64,000 nt of DNA from Permianibacter aggregans. Lineage in GTDB: Bacteria > Pseudomonadota > Gammaproteobacteria > Enterobacterales > Permianibacteraceae. The notes beneath the pieces are model-generated. The model saw only the letters and a list, made by a program, of their open reading frames with translations. It was not told the DNA's origin and did not search any database. Below are positions 4,027 to 11,731 of this stretch, piece after piece; position 1 is the stretch's first letter; each line of letters begins with the position of its first letter. The stretch is from positions 3,782,001 to 3,846,000 of the forward strand of contig NZ_CP037953.1 in NCBI RefSeq assembly GCF_009756665.1, read 5' to 3'. The position numbers were made by a program, and so were the translations under genes.

Positions 4027-4863
4027 TTAACCCAACAAGGTTTTCGCTTCGGCGATATCCATGTTGATTTCTTCGATGTCGTGGACGGCGACATCGGCCG
4101 ACAAACCCAACTTGCCGAAGGCCTGAATCGTGCTCCAATCCATCTGGCCGAGCGCGTGCTCGGTGCCAGCGTATTTCTGCAAACGAGCGACGGTAACGAC
4201 ATCGGCGTAATCGGCCGGGCCCGGATGGCTGCGGCCATAGTCGATGCAACCTTCCGGCACGGCAATCAGCTCCGGTGGGAAATCCCAGGCGGTCAGAATC
4301 GCGGTGCCGATTTTTGGATGCAGTTTGTCGATGATGCGGTTCAGGATGTCTGGATGATTCAGCAAATCGCCGGTTTCCTCGGCCATCGCCAGAATCGGCA
4401 ACATGCCAATTTCATGGACGAGGCCAGCCAGCATCGCCTGATCCGGTTTCAGCTTGGTGTAGTGCTGGGCCAGCACCTGGGATATAGAGGCGATCTCAGT
4501 CGAATTCTGCCAGGAGTCACGCAAGCGGCGATCGACGACATCGGAGGTGGCCTGGAACATTTGCTGCATTGCCAAACCGGTCACCAGGTTACGGACGAAC
4601 GTAAGACCCAGGCGGGTAATCGCGAATTGCAGGTTGTCGACCGGCACCCGGCCACGCAGCAACGGGCTGTTGGCGACCTTGATGATGCGGGCGGCCAGTG
4701 CCGCGTCCTGGGAAATCATGCTGGCCAGTTTGCCGGCTGATACATCCGGGTCGTCGACCGCTTCGCGCACGCGCAAAGCGACTTCCGGCAGGGTCGGCAA
4801 AGTCAGTCGATCGTGTTTGATCGCATCCAGTAATTCATCGAGAAATTGTTGCTCTACGCTCAT
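4027..4863 (-). CDS. HDOD domain protein
   Basis: The protein has 278 residues. The HDOD domain, a catalytically degenerate relative of HD phosphohydrolases, spans about residues 15-215. Typical features are LPTLPEVALRVREAVDDP, LASMISQDAALAARIIKVANS, the AITRLGL turn and LVHEIGMLPIL in place of an intact HD pair. HDOD proteins usually act as signalling or regulatory scaffolds, often linked to motility, cyclic-di-GMP or stress; the partner here is unknown. It is a single-domain form without GGDEF, EAL or receiver modules. It is convergent with lysS, with ygfZ 47 bp upstream on the same strand. Confidence 0.88.
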   Translation of the reverse strand: MSVEQQFLDELLDAIKHDRLTLPTLPEVALRVREAVDDPDVSAGKLASMISQDAALAARIIKVANSPLLRGRVPVDNLQFAITRLGLTFVRNLVTGLAMQQMFQATSDVVDRRLRDSWQNSTEIASISQVLAQHYTKLKPDQAMLAGLVHEIGMLPILAMAEETGDLLNHPDILNRIIDKLHPKIGTAILTAWDFPPELIAVPEGCIDYGRSHPGPADYADVVTVARLQKYAGTEHALGQMDWSTIQAFGKLGLSADVAVHDIEEINMDIAEAKTLLG

Positions 4864-4910
4864 CAGGGTACCTGTCTTGGTGGCGTCGGGAGTCTGGCGC
4901 TCCGGAAGGG

Positions 4911-5762
4911 TTAACGGTCCACAAGCTCAAGTATAGGCAGGGATTCAGAACTGACACGCAAGTCGGAGGATAATGCGGCATCGTTCACGGTGCAAAGCAC
5001 GGCCTGCCGGCCATCACCGAGCGGAACGATGGTAACAAGCTCGCCTTCGGCCCGATCGCCACTGGTTATTTCCTGACCAATTTTCAGATCTTCGGCCTTG
5101 ACCAGGCCCTTTTGCAGATGGGTTTTCGGCGTGCCGCGAAACTCCATCCGAGCGATGATTTCCTGACCGGTGTAGCAGCCTTTCTTGAAGTTGACGGTAC
5201 CGATCTGGGCCAGATTGATATGGTGCGGCAGCAGTTTTTCGCTGTTCTCCGGCACAATCGTCGGCACTTTCTGGTCGATATCGAGCAATTGCCAGTAGCG
5301 CGCTGGCTGGGTATTTTCCGGCGCCGGCTCACTGGCGGTTTGTAACACCAGACGGCGTTGCTCGTCGTAATGCAGCGCTGCCGAAATACCCGCCAATGGG
5401 CGTTGTTCGCCGACCAGTCCAATCACCCGATAGTCGCTGCTGACGTCATTCAGTTTGGTTTTGAAGAACGCGGCGTATTTTTTTATCGCATCCAGAAACG
5501 GCGCAATCATCGTCGCCGGTATCACGAGGTAAATGGCTTCATCATCGGCGAGCAGATGAAAAAACGCCCGAACCCGGCCTTGGGGGTTGCAGGAGGCGCC
5601 GGTCAGGTGCGTGCCGGGCAGCAAGGCGTTGACGTCGCAGGTCAACTGGCCTTGCAGAAATTTCTGCCGATCCGGGCCGTCGACACGGACCACGCCAAGC
5701 GATTCGAGCGCGCATAGAAACGGCATGGTGGGTAAAACGGTGGTCAGAGGGCTGGAGCTCAT
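4911..5762 (-). CDS. ygfZ: Folate-binding protein YgfZ, Fe-S cluster assembly/repair
   Basis: YgfZ is a tetrahydrofolate-binding member of the aminomethyltransferase (GcvT) fold family that supports the activity of certain Fe-S enzymes such as MiaB. The conserved signature with its essential cysteine is KGCYTGQEI, followed by RMEFRG. The chosen ATG at 5762 gives 283 residues beginning MSSSPLTT; the longer frame to 5819 would overlap the divergent sdhE start and adds an atypical N-terminus. Divergence from sdhE, another factor for redox-enzyme maturation, is common in this class. Confidence 0.93.
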   Translation of the reverse strand: MSSSPLTTVLPTMPFLCALESLGVVRVDGPDRQKFLQGQLTCDVNALLPGTHLTGASCNPQGRVRAFFHLLADDEAIYLVIPATMIAPFLDAIKKYAAFFKTKLNDVSSDYRVIGLVGEQRPLAGISAALHYDEQRRLVLQTASEPAPENTQPARYWQLLDIDQKVPTIVPENSEKLLPHHINLAQIGTVNFKKGCYTGQEIIARMEFRGTPKTHLQKGLVKAEDLKIGQEITSGDRAEGELVTIVPLGDGRQAVLCTVNDAALSSDLRVSSESLPILELVDR

Positions 5763-5817: not shown

Positions 5818-6069
5818 ATGATTGAACAAGCCGAAAAGCGTCGTCTGCACTACCAATGCCGGCGCGGCATGCTGGAATTGGATGTGATTCTGCTGCCGTA
5901 TTTCGAAGCAATGGCCGATCAGCTCGATGACGCCGGTATCCGCCGTTTCGCGGCCCTGCTAGAAGAAGCCGACCCGGATTTATACACCTGGCTGATGGGT
6001 TATGGTGCGCCGGAGAATCCGGAGCTATTGGCTGCGGTAGCGGCGATTCGCGAGTTCACGCTGCGTTGA
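5818..6069 (+). CDS. sdhE: FAD assembly factor SdhE
   Basis: SdhE is a small five-helix protein that promotes covalent flavinylation of succinate dehydrogenase SdhA. The product is 83 residues starting at ATG 5818. It holds the key RGxxE motif within RRGMLELDVILLPYFE and the usual acidic C-terminal half (LEEADPDLYTWLMG). The TGA overlaps the ATG of ygfX, so the two are translationally coupled as in E. coli. Confidence 0.94.
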   Translation: MIEQAEKRRLHYQCRRGMLELDVILLPYFEAMADQLDDAGIRRFAALLEEADPDLYTWLMGYGAPENPELLAAVAAIREFTLR

Positions 6070-6500
6070 TGCTGACGCTGCGGCCGTCTGATTTTCTGCG
6101 ACGAGTCAATCTGCTGTTGCATCTCGCGTTGTTTTCGCTATGTGCCGTGTTGCTCAGCGAAATCTGGTGGTGGTTGCTGAGCTTGCCGTTGTTTGCCACT
6201 AGTGCCTTATTTGCCGACCGGCATTTTGCCTTGCGTAGCGAAAACGGTATTTGCGGCCTTGGCCAACATGAAGGGCAGTGGCGCATGCAGAATCGTGCGC
6301 AGCAATGGTTGCGGCTGACGCTGACCGCTCCGAGTTATGTCAGTCAGCAACTTCTGGTGATTGCCGGTACCGATGAGCATGGCCGCCATGTCCGGCAATT
6401 GATTGCCCGCGACATGCTCAATGAAGCTGATTATCGGCGCCTGTGCCGTTGGTTACGTCAGCAACCACACTCGGATGCTTCCGACGAGATCGAAGATTAA
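6069..6500 (+). CDS. ygfX: YgfX/CptA family inner-membrane protein
   Basis: The product is 143 residues. Two closely spaced hydrophobic segments lie at about residues 15-50 (LLLHLALFSLCAVLLSEIWWWLLSLPLF), followed by a cytoplasmic domain that includes WLRLTLT and a run of arginines before an acidic tail. Size, topology and coupling to sdhE fit the YgfX (CptA) family, reported in E. coli to interact with cytoskeletal proteins and partner SdhE. The start is the ATG overlapping the sdhE stop. The end overlaps the convergent anti-sigma gene by four bases. Confidence 0.82.
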   Translation: MLTLRPSDFLRRVNLLLHLALFSLCAVLLSEIWWWLLSLPLFATSALFADRHFALRSENGICGLGQHEGQWRMQNRAQQWLRLTLTAPSYVSQQLLVIAGTDEHGRHVRQLIARDMLNEADYRRLCRWLRQQPHSDASDEIED

Positions 6501-6847
6501 AGACGCTGCGCTTGCGGCGTTTGCTGCTTCACATCAAGCAGTTTGATCAGCGCCAGTATCGCTGCTGTCATCAGCAATATTGGCCAGGGGGCGCTGCTGA
6601 TCTGTTCGGTTAGTTGTTCGCTGATGACATTCAACCATGGCAGAAAAAAAGCGCTGAGCATCAAGACGGCAATGGCAACCGTGATTCGCGTCAACCAGAT
6701 CTCCCATCCGGCTTGCTCTTCATGATCGCTGACTTGTTGCTGCAATGCTTCGGCAAAATTGGCTGGAATGGCCGGCATTGGCGCGGTCTGTAGCGCGTGT
6801 TGCAACAGCGTGTCAAACTGGTCGCGATGAGGTTCTTGTTTACTCAT
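6497..6847 (-). CDS. Small membrane protein, probable anti-sigma factor of the adjacent ECF sigma
   Basis: The protein has 116 residues, starting at ATG 6847, which overlaps the stop of the sigma gene. A cytoplasmic N-terminus of about 50 residues (FDTLLQHALQTAPMPAIPANFAEAL) is followed by two hydrophobic segments at about 55-75 and 87-102. Position and topology suggest a membrane anti-sigma, but there is no zinc-binding HxxxCxxC motif and I do not recognise the family. The role is inferred from context. Confidence 0.62.
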   Translation of the reverse strand: MSKQEPHRDQFDTLLQHALQTAPMPAIPANFAEALQQQVSDHEEQAGWEIWLTRITVAIAVLMLSAFFLPWLNVISEQLTEQISSAPWPILLMTAAILALIKLLDVKQQTPQAQRL

Positions 6848-7421
6848 TGAATACTCCCATTTTTTCGCATTGCGTCCGCAACTGATGACGGGCGCGGAAC
6901 AGGGCATTTTTTATCGTGCCTTCCGGCTTTTCTGTGATCGCGGCAATGTCGTTTACGCTCATTTCTTCCAGGTAGTAGAGGGTCAGTACCGTGCGTGACA
7001 GTGGTGACAATTCGGCCATCGCCTGGTGCAGTGATGCCATCAGTTGTTGATTGGCGCAGGCTGCTGCCAGATCAAAATCATCCGCGAGCAATTCGACTGG
7101 CGAGGTCTGTTCCTCATCGGGTTCCACGATGGGTAGCTGACGTCGCTGCAAATGCCGGATGGAGACATGATAGGCAATGCGCCCAATCCAGGTCGCAAGC
7201 GAACTGTCAAAACGAAACTGGCGCAAATAGCGATGCACGCGCAGAAATACCTCCTGGGACAGCTCCCGACAATCCTCCGGGTGTTGCACCATTCGGTAGA
7301 CAAGATGCCAGACCAAACGCTGGTAGCGCTCCACCAAAACGGTAAACGCTCCTTCGCGATGGGCAAGCACATCGGCGACCAATTGGCGCTCCTGCAGCCG
7401 ATTTTCCTGCGACTCCGTCAT
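6840..7421 (-). CDS. ECF-type RNA polymerase sigma factor
   Basis: The product is 193 residues. Region 2 covers about residues 25-95 (FTVLVERYQRLVWHLVYRM, CRELSQEVFLRVHRYL, SLATWIGRIAYHVSIRHLQR) and region 4 about 130-180 (MAELSPLSRTVLTLYYLEEMSVNDIAAIT, PEGTIKNALFRARHQL). It is distinct from the rpoE of this window at 11153. It sits between a DUF6249 membrane protein and a small membrane protein in one operon, a layout typical of an autoregulated ECF module. Start ATG 7421 is 11 bp after the upstream gene; its Shine-Dalgarno is weak, which fits coupling. Confidence 0.92.
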   Translation of the reverse strand: MTESQENRLQERQLVADVLAHREGAFTVLVERYQRLVWHLVYRMVQHPEDCRELSQEVFLRVHRYLRQFRFDSSLATWIGRIAYHVSIRHLQRRQLPIVEPDEEQTSPVELLADDFDLAAACANQQLMASLHQAMAELSPLSRTVLTLYYLEEMSVNDIAAITEKPEGTIKNALFRARHQLRTQCEKMGVFNE

Positions 7422-7432
7422 GCGCGAAACGC

Positions 7433-7765
7433 TCAGTTTTCGCGTCGCTGCAAAAGATGGTGGAGCAGCAAACCCAAACCTGATGCCGCCAGCAACAACC
7501 CGTAGGCACCAGGGTCTTGGCTACCGAGTTCAAACACATCGATCAGCGCCAGCGCGACGCCAAGCATGATCAGCACCAGTCCCCATTTCTGCGCCCCCTG
7601 TTTGCGGTTGGCTTCATCGGCTTCGGTAATCGCCCGCACCAGCTCTTCACTGGCATGAGTTTCAGCGAGCCGGCGCCGAAGTCGGCCATCGACGACGGCA
7701 CGCACAATCGCGACCAGACAGATGAATCCGACGATCGGAATCATCAGCGAAAGTATGTCATCCAT
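7433..7765 (-). CDS. DUF6249-like membrane protein, first gene of the ECF operon
   Basis: The product is 110 residues from ATG 7765, which has a good GGAGA ribosome site; the longer frame to 7939 runs into the divergent promoter region and was not used. There are three hydrophobic segments: an N-terminal one (SLMIPIVGFICLVAIVRAVV), a central one (WGLVLIMLGVALALIDVF) and a C-terminal one (GAYGLLLAASGLGLLLHHLL). A charged amphipathic linker (about 30-55) separates the first two. Pattern and context suggest the DUF6249 family often seen beside ECF sigma factors; function unknown. Confidence 0.7.
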   Translation of the reverse strand: MDDILSLMIPIVGFICLVAIVRAVVDGRLRRRLAETHASEELVRAITEADEANRKQGAQKWGLVLIMLGVALALIDVFELGSQDPGAYGLLLAASGLGLLLHHLLQRREN

Positions 7766-7803
7766 AGTGTTCTCCAACGGAAATTCGGATGTTTTCAGCA
7801 ACT

Positions 7804-7830
7804 GATACATCAAGCGAGCAATCGGTTGCA
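7804..7830 (-). promoter_or_regulatory. Predicted ECF promoter for the DUF6249-sigma-anti-sigma operon
   Basis: On the minus strand TGCAACC (7830-7824) is followed after 14 bp by TGTATC (7809-7804), about 38 bp before the DUF6249 start. The same motif with the same spacing faces the serine hydrolase on the other strand. This suggests autoregulation by the operon's own sigma factor. Confidence 0.5.
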
Positions 7831-7862
7831 TATCAACGGAAAAAAGTTTTCTCGATTTTTTT

Positions 7863-7889
7863 TGCAACCGTTTCGATGCTGACCGTATC
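7863..7889 (+). promoter_or_regulatory. Predicted ECF promoter for the serine hydrolase gene
   Basis: TGCAACC (7863-7869), 14 bp, CGTATC (7884-7889), about 41 bp before ATG 7931. It matches the divergent motif at 7804-7830 in both boxes and spacing. Confidence 0.5.
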
Positions 7890-7930
7890 TGTCCTGCTGA
7901 ACAAAGGCAATAACCTAAGAGGAACATCGA

Positions 7931-9304
7931 ATGAAACAACGTTTATTCTTGGCCAGCGCACTGTGTATGGGCCTTTTGGCTGCGACGGCAGTCAATGCCG
8001 ATGCGCTGCAGGCACCGGCCGCAATACAGAAACAGATCCCGGCGCTGATGGAGAAAAGCAAAGTGCGCGGTCTGGCGATCGCCAAAATCGAAAACGGCAA
8101 GCTCGCCTGGCATGCGGCATTTGGCGAACGAGCGCCGGGCAAACCTATGCAAACCGACAGCGTGTTCAATGTCGCCAGTCTGACCAAGCCGGTATTCGCG
8201 ACGGCCGCCTTGCATGCCATTGCCGATCAGCAACTGCAACTGGATGAGTCGTTGGCGAGCTACTGGGTAGACGAGGATATTGCCGATGATCCACGTCATC
8301 AAAAGCTGACCGCACGCACGGTGCTCAGCCACCAGAGTGGGCTGCCGAATTGGCGCGGCAATCGCAAACTGGCGTTCATGTTTGAGCCGGGTCAGCGTCA
8401 CGAATATTCCGGCGAAGGGTTTGAGTATCTGCGTCGGGCGCTGGAGCGCAAGACCGATCAATCGATGACTGAATTGATGAATAAACAGGTGCTGCAAGTC
8501 GCCGGTATGACGCAAACCTATGTTGGTTGGAACGCAAAAATCGCCGACCGCATCGCCACCGGCTTCAATGAAGCCGGTGAGCCGATTGATACCAATTTGG
8601 CATCGCGCCAACCGAATGCCGCTGCGCATCTGATGTCGACGGTCGATGATTACGCGCGTTTTCTGGCCTGGGTAGCCAATGGTGCCGGTTTACCGGCCGA
8701 GCTTCAGAAACAAATGGCCAAGCCGCAGGCTCTACACAGTAATCCGGCCGAGCGTTTTGGGCTTGGCTGGAAGCTGATTCCGCTCAGCGAAGGCGAAGCG
8801 CTGATGCACGATGGCCGTGAGCCGGGCGTGCGAACCTATGCGATGGTGTCGCCGCAATTAAACGAGGGGTTGGTTATTCTGACCAACAGTTCCAATGGCG
8901 AATTGATTTTCCGGCCGCTGATTGCGGAGGCGATGAGCAACGGCGAAGCGATACTGCGCAGTACCGATCAATTGGTTTGGCATTATCTGCAAAGTTTACC
9001 GCCACAGGCACTGGCGCCGATGAGTCGTGGCATTGCCCGTTCGCCGAGTTATTTGTCGACGCTGTTGCATGCGGTCAATACCGCGCTGATGCAGTCGTCA
9101 GCCTTGTCCGATGCTGAAAAGCGGGCGGCGGCCGAGCAGGTCAATGACTATGTTTTCGCTCGATTCAATGACCAAGTCTCTGCCGAACAGGCGCAAGCGT
9201 TGATTGAGCGCTTGTTGCGGAAAGACGGCGATGAACAGCGTCTGCACATTCAGTTCAACAAGCAGGCGGCGCGCGAATGGTTGCAAGCCTTGCAGCAAAT
9301 TTGA
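7931..9304 (+). CDS. Exported serine hydrolase, class C beta-lactamase/penicillin-binding family
   Basis: The protein has 457 residues with a clear signal peptide (MKQRLFLASALCMGLLAATA, cut near NADA). The beta-lactamase-type domain spans about residues 30-340: SLTK (SxxK nucleophile motif) after FNVA, a YSGE segment in the YxN position, and HDGREPGVRTY in the KTG/HxG position. The family includes esterases, D-aminopeptidases and carboxypeptidases, so a beta-lactam substrate should not be assumed. A helical C-terminal extension of about 115 residues has no recognised motif. Its promoter motif is shared with the divergent ECF operon, suggesting it is a target of that sigma factor. Confidence 0.88.
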   Translation: MKQRLFLASALCMGLLAATAVNADALQAPAAIQKQIPALMEKSKVRGLAIAKIENGKLAWHAAFGERAPGKPMQTDSVFNVASLTKPVFATAALHAIADQQLQLDESLASYWVDEDIADDPRHQKLTARTVLSHQSGLPNWRGNRKLAFMFEPGQRHEYSGEGFEYLRRALERKTDQSMTELMNKQVLQVAGMTQTYVGWNAKIADRIATGFNEAGEPIDTNLASRQPNAAAHLMSTVDDYARFLAWVANGAGLPAELQKQMAKPQALHSNPAERFGLGWKLIPLSEGEALMHDGREPGVRTYAMVSPQLNEGLVILTNSSNGELIFRPLIAEAMSNGEAILRSTDQLVWHYLQSLPPQALAPMSRGIARSPSYLSTLLHAVNTALMQSSALSDAEKRAAAEQVNDYVFARFNDQVSAEQAQALIERLLRKDGDEQRLHIQFNKQAAREWLQALQQI

Positions 9305-9362: not shown

Positions 9363-10964
9363 TCAGTGATTCGGCGACAGAATGGTTTGGTGGCGCTGAT
9401 CATCCGGTAACGGTTCCGGGTAATCGGCGTTGTAGTGCAGACCGCGACTTTCTTTTCGCTGCATCGCCGAACGCACGATTAGCTCCGCGACCAGCGCCAG
9501 GTTACGCAGCTCCAGCAAGTCATTGGTGACATGAAAGTGCTGGTAATACTCGCGGATTTCCTCCTGCAACATCGCGATGCGACGCTGCGCCCGTTGCAGG
9601 CGTTTATCAGTGCGAACAATGCCAACGTAATCCCACATCGTTTGCCGTAGCTCATGCCAGTTGTGGGAAACGACAACGGCTTCATCGGCATCGGTTACCC
9701 GGCTATCGTCCCAGGCGGGGATGGCTGGAGATGGCGGCACTGAAGACCAGTTGGCGAGAATATCTTCGGCAGCGGCAGCACCGAATACCAGGCATTCCAA
9801 CAAGGAATTGGATGCCATGCGATTGGCGCCGTGCAAACCGGTCCAGGCGACTTCACCGACGGCATAAAGCTGCTCGACATCGGTGCGTGCTTTTAAATCG
9901 GTGACCACGCCGCCGCAGGTGTAATGAGCGGCCGGCACCACCGGAATCGGTTCGTTGGTCAAATCAAAACCGAATTCCAGACAGCGCTGATAAACGGTGG
10001 GGAAATGACTGGTAATGAACTCGGCCGGTTTGTGGCTGATGTTCAACCACATGCAATCGGCACCGAGCCGTTTCATTTCACTGTCGATGGCGCGGGCGAC
10101 GATATCGCGCGGGGCAAGTTCTGCACGCTCATCGTAATCGGGCATGAAGCGGCTGCCATCCGGCCGTTGCAGGTAAGCGCCTTCACCGCGCAGCGCTTCG
10201 GTAACCAGAAAGTTTTTCGCCTGCGGGTGATAAAGACAAGTCGGGTGAAACTGATTGAATTCCAGATTGGCGACCCGGCAACCGACCCGCCAGGCCATGG
10301 CAATGCCATCGCCGCTGGCAACGTCCGGGTTCGAGGTGTAGAGATAAACCTTGCTGGCGCCGCCGGTGGCGAGCACGACAAAGCGTGCCGAAATGGTTTC
10401 GACCTGATCCGTCTCGAGGTTCAACACATATGCACCGACACAGCGATTGCCGGGCTGCTGCAGTTTTTGCGTCGTGATCAAGTCGACCGCAATATAGTGC
10501 TCCAGCAAGGTGACGTTCGGAGCCTGGCGAACCGCGTCGACCAGAGAGGTTTGCACGGCGCGGCCGGTGGCATCGGCCGAATGGATGATGCGCCGGTGCG
10601 AGTGGCCGCCTTCGCGGGTCAGGTGATAACCGCCGCTGCCATCGGCACTGGCGTCGGTGGAAAAGCGCACGCCTTTTTCAATCAGCCATTCAATTGCCGA
10701 GCGGCTGCGCTCAACGGTAAAACGCACGGCGGGTTCTTCGCAGAGGCCGGCGCCTGCGACCAGCGTGTCCTGGACATGAGCATCGACGGTGTCAGTCTGA
10801 TCGAGTACCGCGGCAATGCCGCCCTGAGCATAAAAGGTGGAGCCTTCACTCAATGTGGCTTTCGACAACACCGCCACCGAACCGTGATGGGCCAGGCGCA
10901 GCGCCACCGACAAGCCGGCCGCGCCGGAACCAATGACCAGTACATCGAATTGTTTTGCCGTCAC
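9363..10964 (-). CDS. nadB: L-aspartate oxidase
   Basis: This FAD enzyme oxidises L-aspartate to iminoaspartate, the first step of de novo NAD synthesis. GTG 10964, preceded by AGGAG seven bases upstream, gives 533 residues, matching the family; a longer open frame to 11051 has no such site. Motifs include the dinucleotide-binding [25 protein letters not shown], the FHPTCL segment and [21 protein letters not shown]. It is divergent from rpoE, the standard gammaproteobacterial arrangement. Confidence 0.96.
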
Positions 10965-11074
10965 AAAGGCTCCTGAAATTTTGCGGGATCGGCGCCGATG
11001 ACGCACAATACCAACTATTCTGCTCGTACGACGATTTTTGCGAGCGCGCATTCTAGAGCGTTGCCGGTCCCGAT

Positions 11075-11152: not shown

Positions 11153-11731
11153 ATGACAGGCCAAGATACCGATTCTGCTTTGGTTGCCCGTGTGCAACGC
11201 GGCGACAAACGAGCCTTTGATCTCCTGGTCAAAAAATATCAACATCGGCTGATGGCGCTGATCGGCCGCTATGTGCGTGACCGCGCCGAAGTCGCCGACG
11301 TCGCTCAGGAAGCCTTTATCAAGGCTTATCGTGCGTTGCCGAATTTCCGTGGCGACAGTCAGTTCTATACCTGGCTGTACCGCATCGCCATCAACACCGC
11401 CAAGAACTTTCTGGCCGCCCAGGGCCGGCGTCTGCAGACCATTGATGTTGAAGGCATGGACGCGGAACAAATCGCCGATATTGCGGGTCCAACCGACGAC
11501 GCAAGCCCTGAGCGCCTGCTTCTGACCGCCGAATTGAAGCAGACCATCGACCAGGCCATGGCCGATTTGCCCGAAGAACTTCGAACGGCGTTATTATTGC
11601 GCGAGTACGAAGGCTTGAGTTATGAAGAAATCGCCGAGGTCATGGAGTGCCCGATAGGCACCGTGCGCTCACGCATCTTCCGGGCGCGCGAGGCGGTGGA
11701 TAAACGCATAGAACCGCTGATCACCCGATGA
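11153..11731 (+). CDS. rpoE: RNA polymerase sigma factor RpoE (AlgU/sigma-E)
   Basis: This is the extracytoplasmic-stress sigma factor, held inactive by RseA until the envelope protease cascade releases it. The product is 192 residues. Region 2 includes FDLLVKKYQHRLMALIGRYV, DVAQEAFIKAYRALPNFRG and FYTWLYRIAINTAKNFL; region 4 includes LPEELRTALLLREYEGLSYEEIA and CPIGTVRSRIFRAREA. All are near-identical to the RpoE/AlgU group. It heads the rpoE-rseA-rseB-rseC-mucD operon. Confidence 0.97.
   Translation: MTGQDTDSALVARVQRGDKRAFDLLVKKYQHRLMALIGRYVRDRAEVADVAQEAFIKAYRALPNFRGDSQFYTWLYRIAINTAKNFLAAQGRRLQTIDVEGMDAEQIADIAGPTDDASPERLLLTAELKQTIDQAMADLPEELRTALLLREYEGLSYEEIAEVMECPIGTVRSRIFRAREAVDKRIEPLITR

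Follow-up and report, generated by a model that had tools for sequence, protein, structure and literature searches.

Divergent ECF-type promoter motifs between a DUF6249–sigma factor operon and an exported serine hydrolase gene in Permianibacter aggregans

The window, the whole 64,000-nucleotide stretch of Permianibacter aggregans DNA analyzed here, contains a cassette of four genes at positions 6497–9304, three on the minus strand and one pointing away from them on the plus strand. The first gene of the leftward set (7433–7765, minus strand) encodes a 110-amino-acid DUF6249 protein whose match to PF19762, at 35.8 bits, is just above the gathering cut-off of 33, and whose all-helical model indicates that it is probably embedded in the membrane. 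It is followed by the gene for an ECF sigma factor of 193 amino acids (6840–7421, minus strand), which has sigma2 and sigma4 domains only (PF04542 at residues 29–95, PF08281 at residues 130–180) and, having neither sigma1.1 nor sigma3, belongs to group IV. This protein scored 92.9 bits against TIGR02937 (cut-off 42.9). It does not classify as RpoE: its score against the RpoE equivalog TIGR02939 was 91 bits and the cut-off of that model is 236. The third gene (6497–6847, minus strand) encodes a protein of 116 amino acids that has two predicted transmembrane helices behind a short cytoplasmic N-terminus; its AlphaFold model has helices at residues 8–22, 32–81, and 89–110. No match to this protein was obtained among the Pfam and NCBIfam families searched, in a fold search with its model, or in a profile search of solved structures; its position and predicted topology mark it as a putative membrane anti-sigma factor. 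The spacing of the three genes, with 11 bp between DUF6249 and sigma and an 8 bp overlap between the sigma stop and the start of the putative anti-sigma gene, indicates that 6497–7765 is one operon.

The rightward gene (7931–9304, plus strand) encodes a serine hydrolase of 457 amino acids with the beta-lactamase/DD-peptidase fold. The first-pass annotation had described it as an exported beta-lactamase-family hydrolase, and this was borne out by a PF00144 score of 177 bits (cut-off 27), by an SxxK motif at residues 83–86 (S83-L-T-K86, SLTK), and by a signal-like N-terminal segment. Among solved structures, it is closest to alkaline D-peptidase, DD-carboxypeptidases, beta-lactamases, and the ClbP peptidase. 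Fold family, SxxK motif, and signal-like N-terminus are all shared with AmpH and the class C beta-lactamase-fold DD-peptidases (PF00144). Unlike those proteins, however, the hydrolase did not reach the curated cut-off for any NCBIfam model among the matches listed, including the equivalogs for class C beta-lactamase (67.5 vs 415 bits) and AmpH (77.9 vs 266 bits).

The start codons of DUF6249 (7765, minus strand) and the hydrolase (7931, plus strand) are separated by a gap of 165 bp (7766–7930), and each strand of this gap carries a single exact copy of TGCAACC-N14-(T/C)GTATC, as had been proposed on first reading. The copy facing the operon, TGCAACCGATTGCTCGCTTGATGTATC (7804–7830, minus strand), has a −35 box TGCAACC at 7824–7830 and a −10 box TGTATC at 7804–7809. 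The copy facing the hydrolase, TGCAACCGTTTCGATGCTGACCGTATC (7863–7889, plus strand), has TGCAACC at 7863–7869 and CGTATC at 7884–7889, and the spacer in both 27-mers is 14 nt. The −10 boxes end 38 bp (DUF6249) and 41 bp (hydrolase) before the respective ATG, close to the initial estimate of about 40 bp. We consider both sites to be candidate ECF-type promoters. AAC in the −35 region and CGT in the −10 region, as in the form TGCAACCG...CGTATC conserved across related loci, are described hallmarks of ECF sigma factors, as is autoregulation (PMC8103513; PMC3817407). In the window, the operon's own promoter has TGTATC and the hydrolase promoter CGTATC.

A scan of the whole 4,266,648 bp genome found only two exact matches to TGCAACC-N14-YGTATC, both of them in this gap. 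When up to two mismatches were allowed there were 165 matches, compared to 136 for the reversed pattern, so that these relaxed matches are mostly noise. When the mononucleotides of the gap were shuffled 2000 times, an inverted dyad of 7+5 positions with like spacing turned up once. The motif was defined after inspection of both copies, however, and a definition derived from the copies themselves is what one would expect if the match were a coincidence picked by eye. Independent conservation is therefore the real test.

We analyzed 83 loci encoding this sigma factor or its relatives (the window included), most of them from Lysobacterales, where such sigma factors are common; the relatives that carry the motif are about 43–68% identical to the sigma factor of the window. 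Counting the exact motif or a one-base variant of the −10 box (YGCATC), the motif was located before DUF6249 and/or the sigma gene in 77 of the 83 loci, with 14 nt between the boxes in all 77. The other six comprise three with one- or two-mismatch forms and three that have TGCAACC at both promoters and a changed −10 box. A DUF6249 gene was present in every one of the 83 loci, and a homologue of the putative anti-sigma gene lay downstream of sigma in 81. This conservation, together with the enrichment of the motif in sigma-positive genomes described below, excludes coincidence for practical purposes, and we give it next to no weight.

The arrangement of these loci also bears on whether the inverted TGCAACC arms could be a single palindromic operator, bound by a repressor or activator, rather than two promoters. 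The two copies in the window do form an inverted repeat around a 32 bp center. In the 52 loci with a divergent pair, however, anything from 10 to 164 bp lies between the copies, and the motif also stands singly before unrelated genes, where it keeps its spacer and its distance to the start codon. Moreover, information in the aligned sites is concentrated in two strong blocks, TGCAACCG and CGTATC, which resemble −35 and −10 elements, and the remaining positions are weakly conserved. We rejected the operator on account of the variable spacing of the copies, and regard it as very improbable. In most Lysobacterales loci, DUF6249 and sigma are divergent, with one copy of the motif for each gene; the two are collinear behind a single copy in the window, in some Dyella, and in a few other loci.

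The whole four-gene cassette, in the order seen in the window with the hydrolase pointing away from DUF6249–sigma–anti-sigma, was found in two genomes from two Lysobacterales genera, G513 (locus L257) and G459 (L258). Their sigma factors are 62–68% and their hydrolases 58–61% identical to those of the window, and the DUF6249, sigma, and hydrolase proteins taken together span 56–68%. Both divergent sites are kept, including the one before the orthologous hydrolase, and one of the four sites has a single mismatch (TGCAGCC). None of the genes flanking the cassette in the window were found at these two cassettes, except for cross-matches between ECF sigma factors. The first-pass annotation had taken loss of the motif from orthologous gaps as one outcome that would overturn its reading; instead, the motif persisted in the 77 loci and in these two cassettes. 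A hydrolase of this family lay nearby in 11 of 80 genome-contig loci, which makes it a recurrent target and not a universal one.

Control by the operon's own sigma factor, as originally proposed, also gained support from the distribution of the motif. Across 300 whole genomes of the order, with the sigma gene scored as present at E below 1e-40, an exact site occurred in 79 of 83 sigma-positive genomes vs 21 of 217 sigma-negative genomes (odds ratio 184, Fisher p about 4e-47, with shared ancestry ignored). Sigma-positive genomes averaged 1.86 sites against 0.18 for a reversed-pattern control, and sigma-negative genomes 0.11 against 0.17. Accordingly, the exact-match regulon normally comprises one to four promoters.

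These data help to decide whether the promoters, if real, might be read by a different sigma factor. ECF promoters resemble each other, and the obvious candidate, RpoE (11153–11731), is encoded only 1.8 kb away. Its RpoE–RseA pair is a separate locus that resembles the cassette in combining an ECF sigma factor with a membrane anti-sigma factor (putative in the cassette). However, RpoE and RseA genes are present in relatives without the cassette, and in Lysobacterales the presence of the motif follows the operon's sigma factor. The promoter of the cassette also differs from the known RpoE consensus.

The three loci with an altered −10 box (L069, L088, and L104, around 4850–4990) also speak against another sigma factor. 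TGCAACC is kept at both divergent promoters, and the −10 box has changed to GGACTC, except that two of the loci have GGCGTC before sigma. If one sigma factor serves both promoters, their −10 boxes would be expected to change in parallel, as they have here, and this sub-group is possibly a natural case of sigma–promoter co-evolution. Sigma residues that might explain the change were listed, but three sequences are too few for this. On balance, we judge recognition by RpoE or some other sigma factor to be improbable. In these three loci, a hydrolase gene directly follows DUF6249.

Sites located away from the operon, collected by pattern search alone, support control of hydrolases by this sigma factor independently of the window. 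Many of these off-operon sites had no clear promoter-like context. Others repeatedly lay some 30 nt before genes for exported hydrolases. These included seven exported PF00144 hydrolases in six genomes, most of them at a distance of 24–40 nt and the farthest at about 70 nt (G422, G740/G438, G453, G479, two in G718, and G579), four exported S33-type alpha/beta hydrolases (G425, G426, G429, and G515), single peptidases of the S41 (G463) and M23 (G445) families, and an aspartyl protease (G680); DUF4440 proteins followed the sites in G427 and G746. PF00144 genes followed 7 of about 23 off-operon sites, far more than chance would give, with p about 1e-12 by a simple binomial in which the background was roughly 0.3% of genes and gene totals were estimated from genome lengths. 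The exported-hydrolase pattern was not seen at the sites inspected in sigma-negative genomes.

The suggestion that the two sites define a regulon seed held only in part. Sites do precede exported serine hydrolases in other genomes, but the host appears to have only these two promoters. Its one- and two-mismatch matches, as listed, were mostly intragenic or had no promoter-like context, so that a larger host regulon was rejected and no further convincing site was found among them. A divergent one-mismatch pair at 1096561/1096752 was discarded, as one site is inside an open reading frame and the other precedes only an open reading frame of 78 amino acids. The circuit in the host thus looks closed, with two promoters, and not like the nucleus of an extensive regulon.

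Taken together, we consider it very likely, with a probability of about 0.9, that the ECF sigma factor encoded at 6840–7421 reads both sites as divergent promoters, one serving its own operon and the other the hydrolase gene. The cassette is apparently a compact, autoregulated ECF system with exported serine hydrolases as targets. In the mechanism that we infer, the sigma factor would be held at the membrane at rest by the co-transcribed two-helix protein (6497–6847), and an envelope signal, which the membrane protein DUF6249 may help to sense, would free it. The sigma–RNA polymerase complex would then bind the AAC-containing −35 element (TGCAACCG) and the YGTATC −10 element on both sides of the gap. 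Leftward transcription would raise DUF6249, sigma, and anti-sigma, giving positive autoregulation with a built-in negative feedback. Rightward transcription would produce the exported beta-lactamase-fold hydrolase as the output of the circuit, presumably acting on a cell-envelope or peptide substrate.

Many features of this system are those of autoregulated operons for ECF sigma factors and membrane anti-sigma factors (PMC8103513, PMC3817407), namely a two-domain sigma factor, an AAC −35 and a CGT −10 element, a promoter for itself, a co-transcribed putative membrane regulator, and a small regulon. In contrast to ECF operons in general, DUF6249 is a near-universal partner whose gene often points away from sigma and has a promoter copy to itself, and the output of this group is enriched for exported PF00144 serine hydrolases. 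Stenotrophomonas maltophilia sigma-P (Smlt3514), as excerpted from its report, is likewise an ECF sigma factor of Lysobacterales and is linked to the peptidoglycan and beta-lactam response (PMC9769791). Compared by that description only, sigma-P differs in having downstream genes for proteins of 177 and 293 amino acids, and the excerpt makes no mention of DUF6249 (PMC9769791). None of the characterized Stenotrophomonas ECF sigma factors in the literature could be equated with the one in the window. In the open-licence literature searched, TGCAACC was mentioned together with an ECF sigma factor only in a paper on Streptomyces sigma-E, and no description of this ECF group was found. The conserved promoter signature that emerges from our analyses, TGCAACCG-N13-YGTATC, belongs to an ECF group that is widespread in Lysobacterales and some other Gammaproteobacteria and has exported serine hydrolases and peptidases as its candidate targets. 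With so small a regulon and a cassette that is complete in itself, the system would be a convenient choice as an orthogonal sigma–promoter pair.

The association of DUF6249 with ECF signaling extends across the phylum. In a sample of 249 genomes, all 14 PF19762 loci that were found, from 13 genomes, adjoined an ECF sigma gene. Besides the window, three of them (L269, L270, and L277) had a match to the hydrolase profile nearby. In L270 (G422) and L277 (G052), a PF00144 hydrolase adjoins DUF6249 and an ECF sigma gene in the absence of the motif, and the association of the three is thus wider than this sigma group. The host itself has a second DUF6249–ECF sigma operon (G000:C1:2276881-2277860, L278) with no TGCAACC motif nearby, which suggests that the two are insulated parallel systems. 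We tentatively propose, at somewhat less than even odds, that a broad class of ECF systems has in DUF6249 a dedicated membrane component, either a sensor or a co-regulator; exported PF00144 hydrolases recur next to such systems or under their control. If so, ECF signaling would have an undescribed architecture whose output is hydrolases directed at peptidoglycan or peptides. DUF6249 is mentioned in a single, unrelated paper of the open-licence literature searched, and its tie to ECF signaling across the phylum gives it a first testable role.

The cassette lies exactly between ygfX (6066–6500) and nadB (9363–11051), and it was absent from this position in the relatives checked. In a genome of the same family (G002), only 585 bp separate the end of sdhE from the end of nadB, with room for ygfX and little else, and in one of the same genus (G001) the sdhE–nadB interval spans about 1.4 kb, occupied by a different open frame. 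Among 59 relatives from the same order, one of them of the same genus and one of the same family, no ortholog of the sigma factor was found. By this comparison the cassette is lineage-specific here, through either gain by transfer or loss in relatives; its G+C content is unremarkable.

Two further features of the genome were noted. Near-identical palindromes of the type TACAACCGCTGTCCCTGCGGTTGTA are dispersed at 898750, 1079926, 1483769, 1488620, 1535238, 2168260, and 2610419, and are probably a family of REP-like repeats. Identical 27 bp matches in opposite orientation occur at genome positions 3995 and 13508 (L003 and L004), inside a 489-codon open frame, and represent an inverted duplicated gene near the start of the contig.
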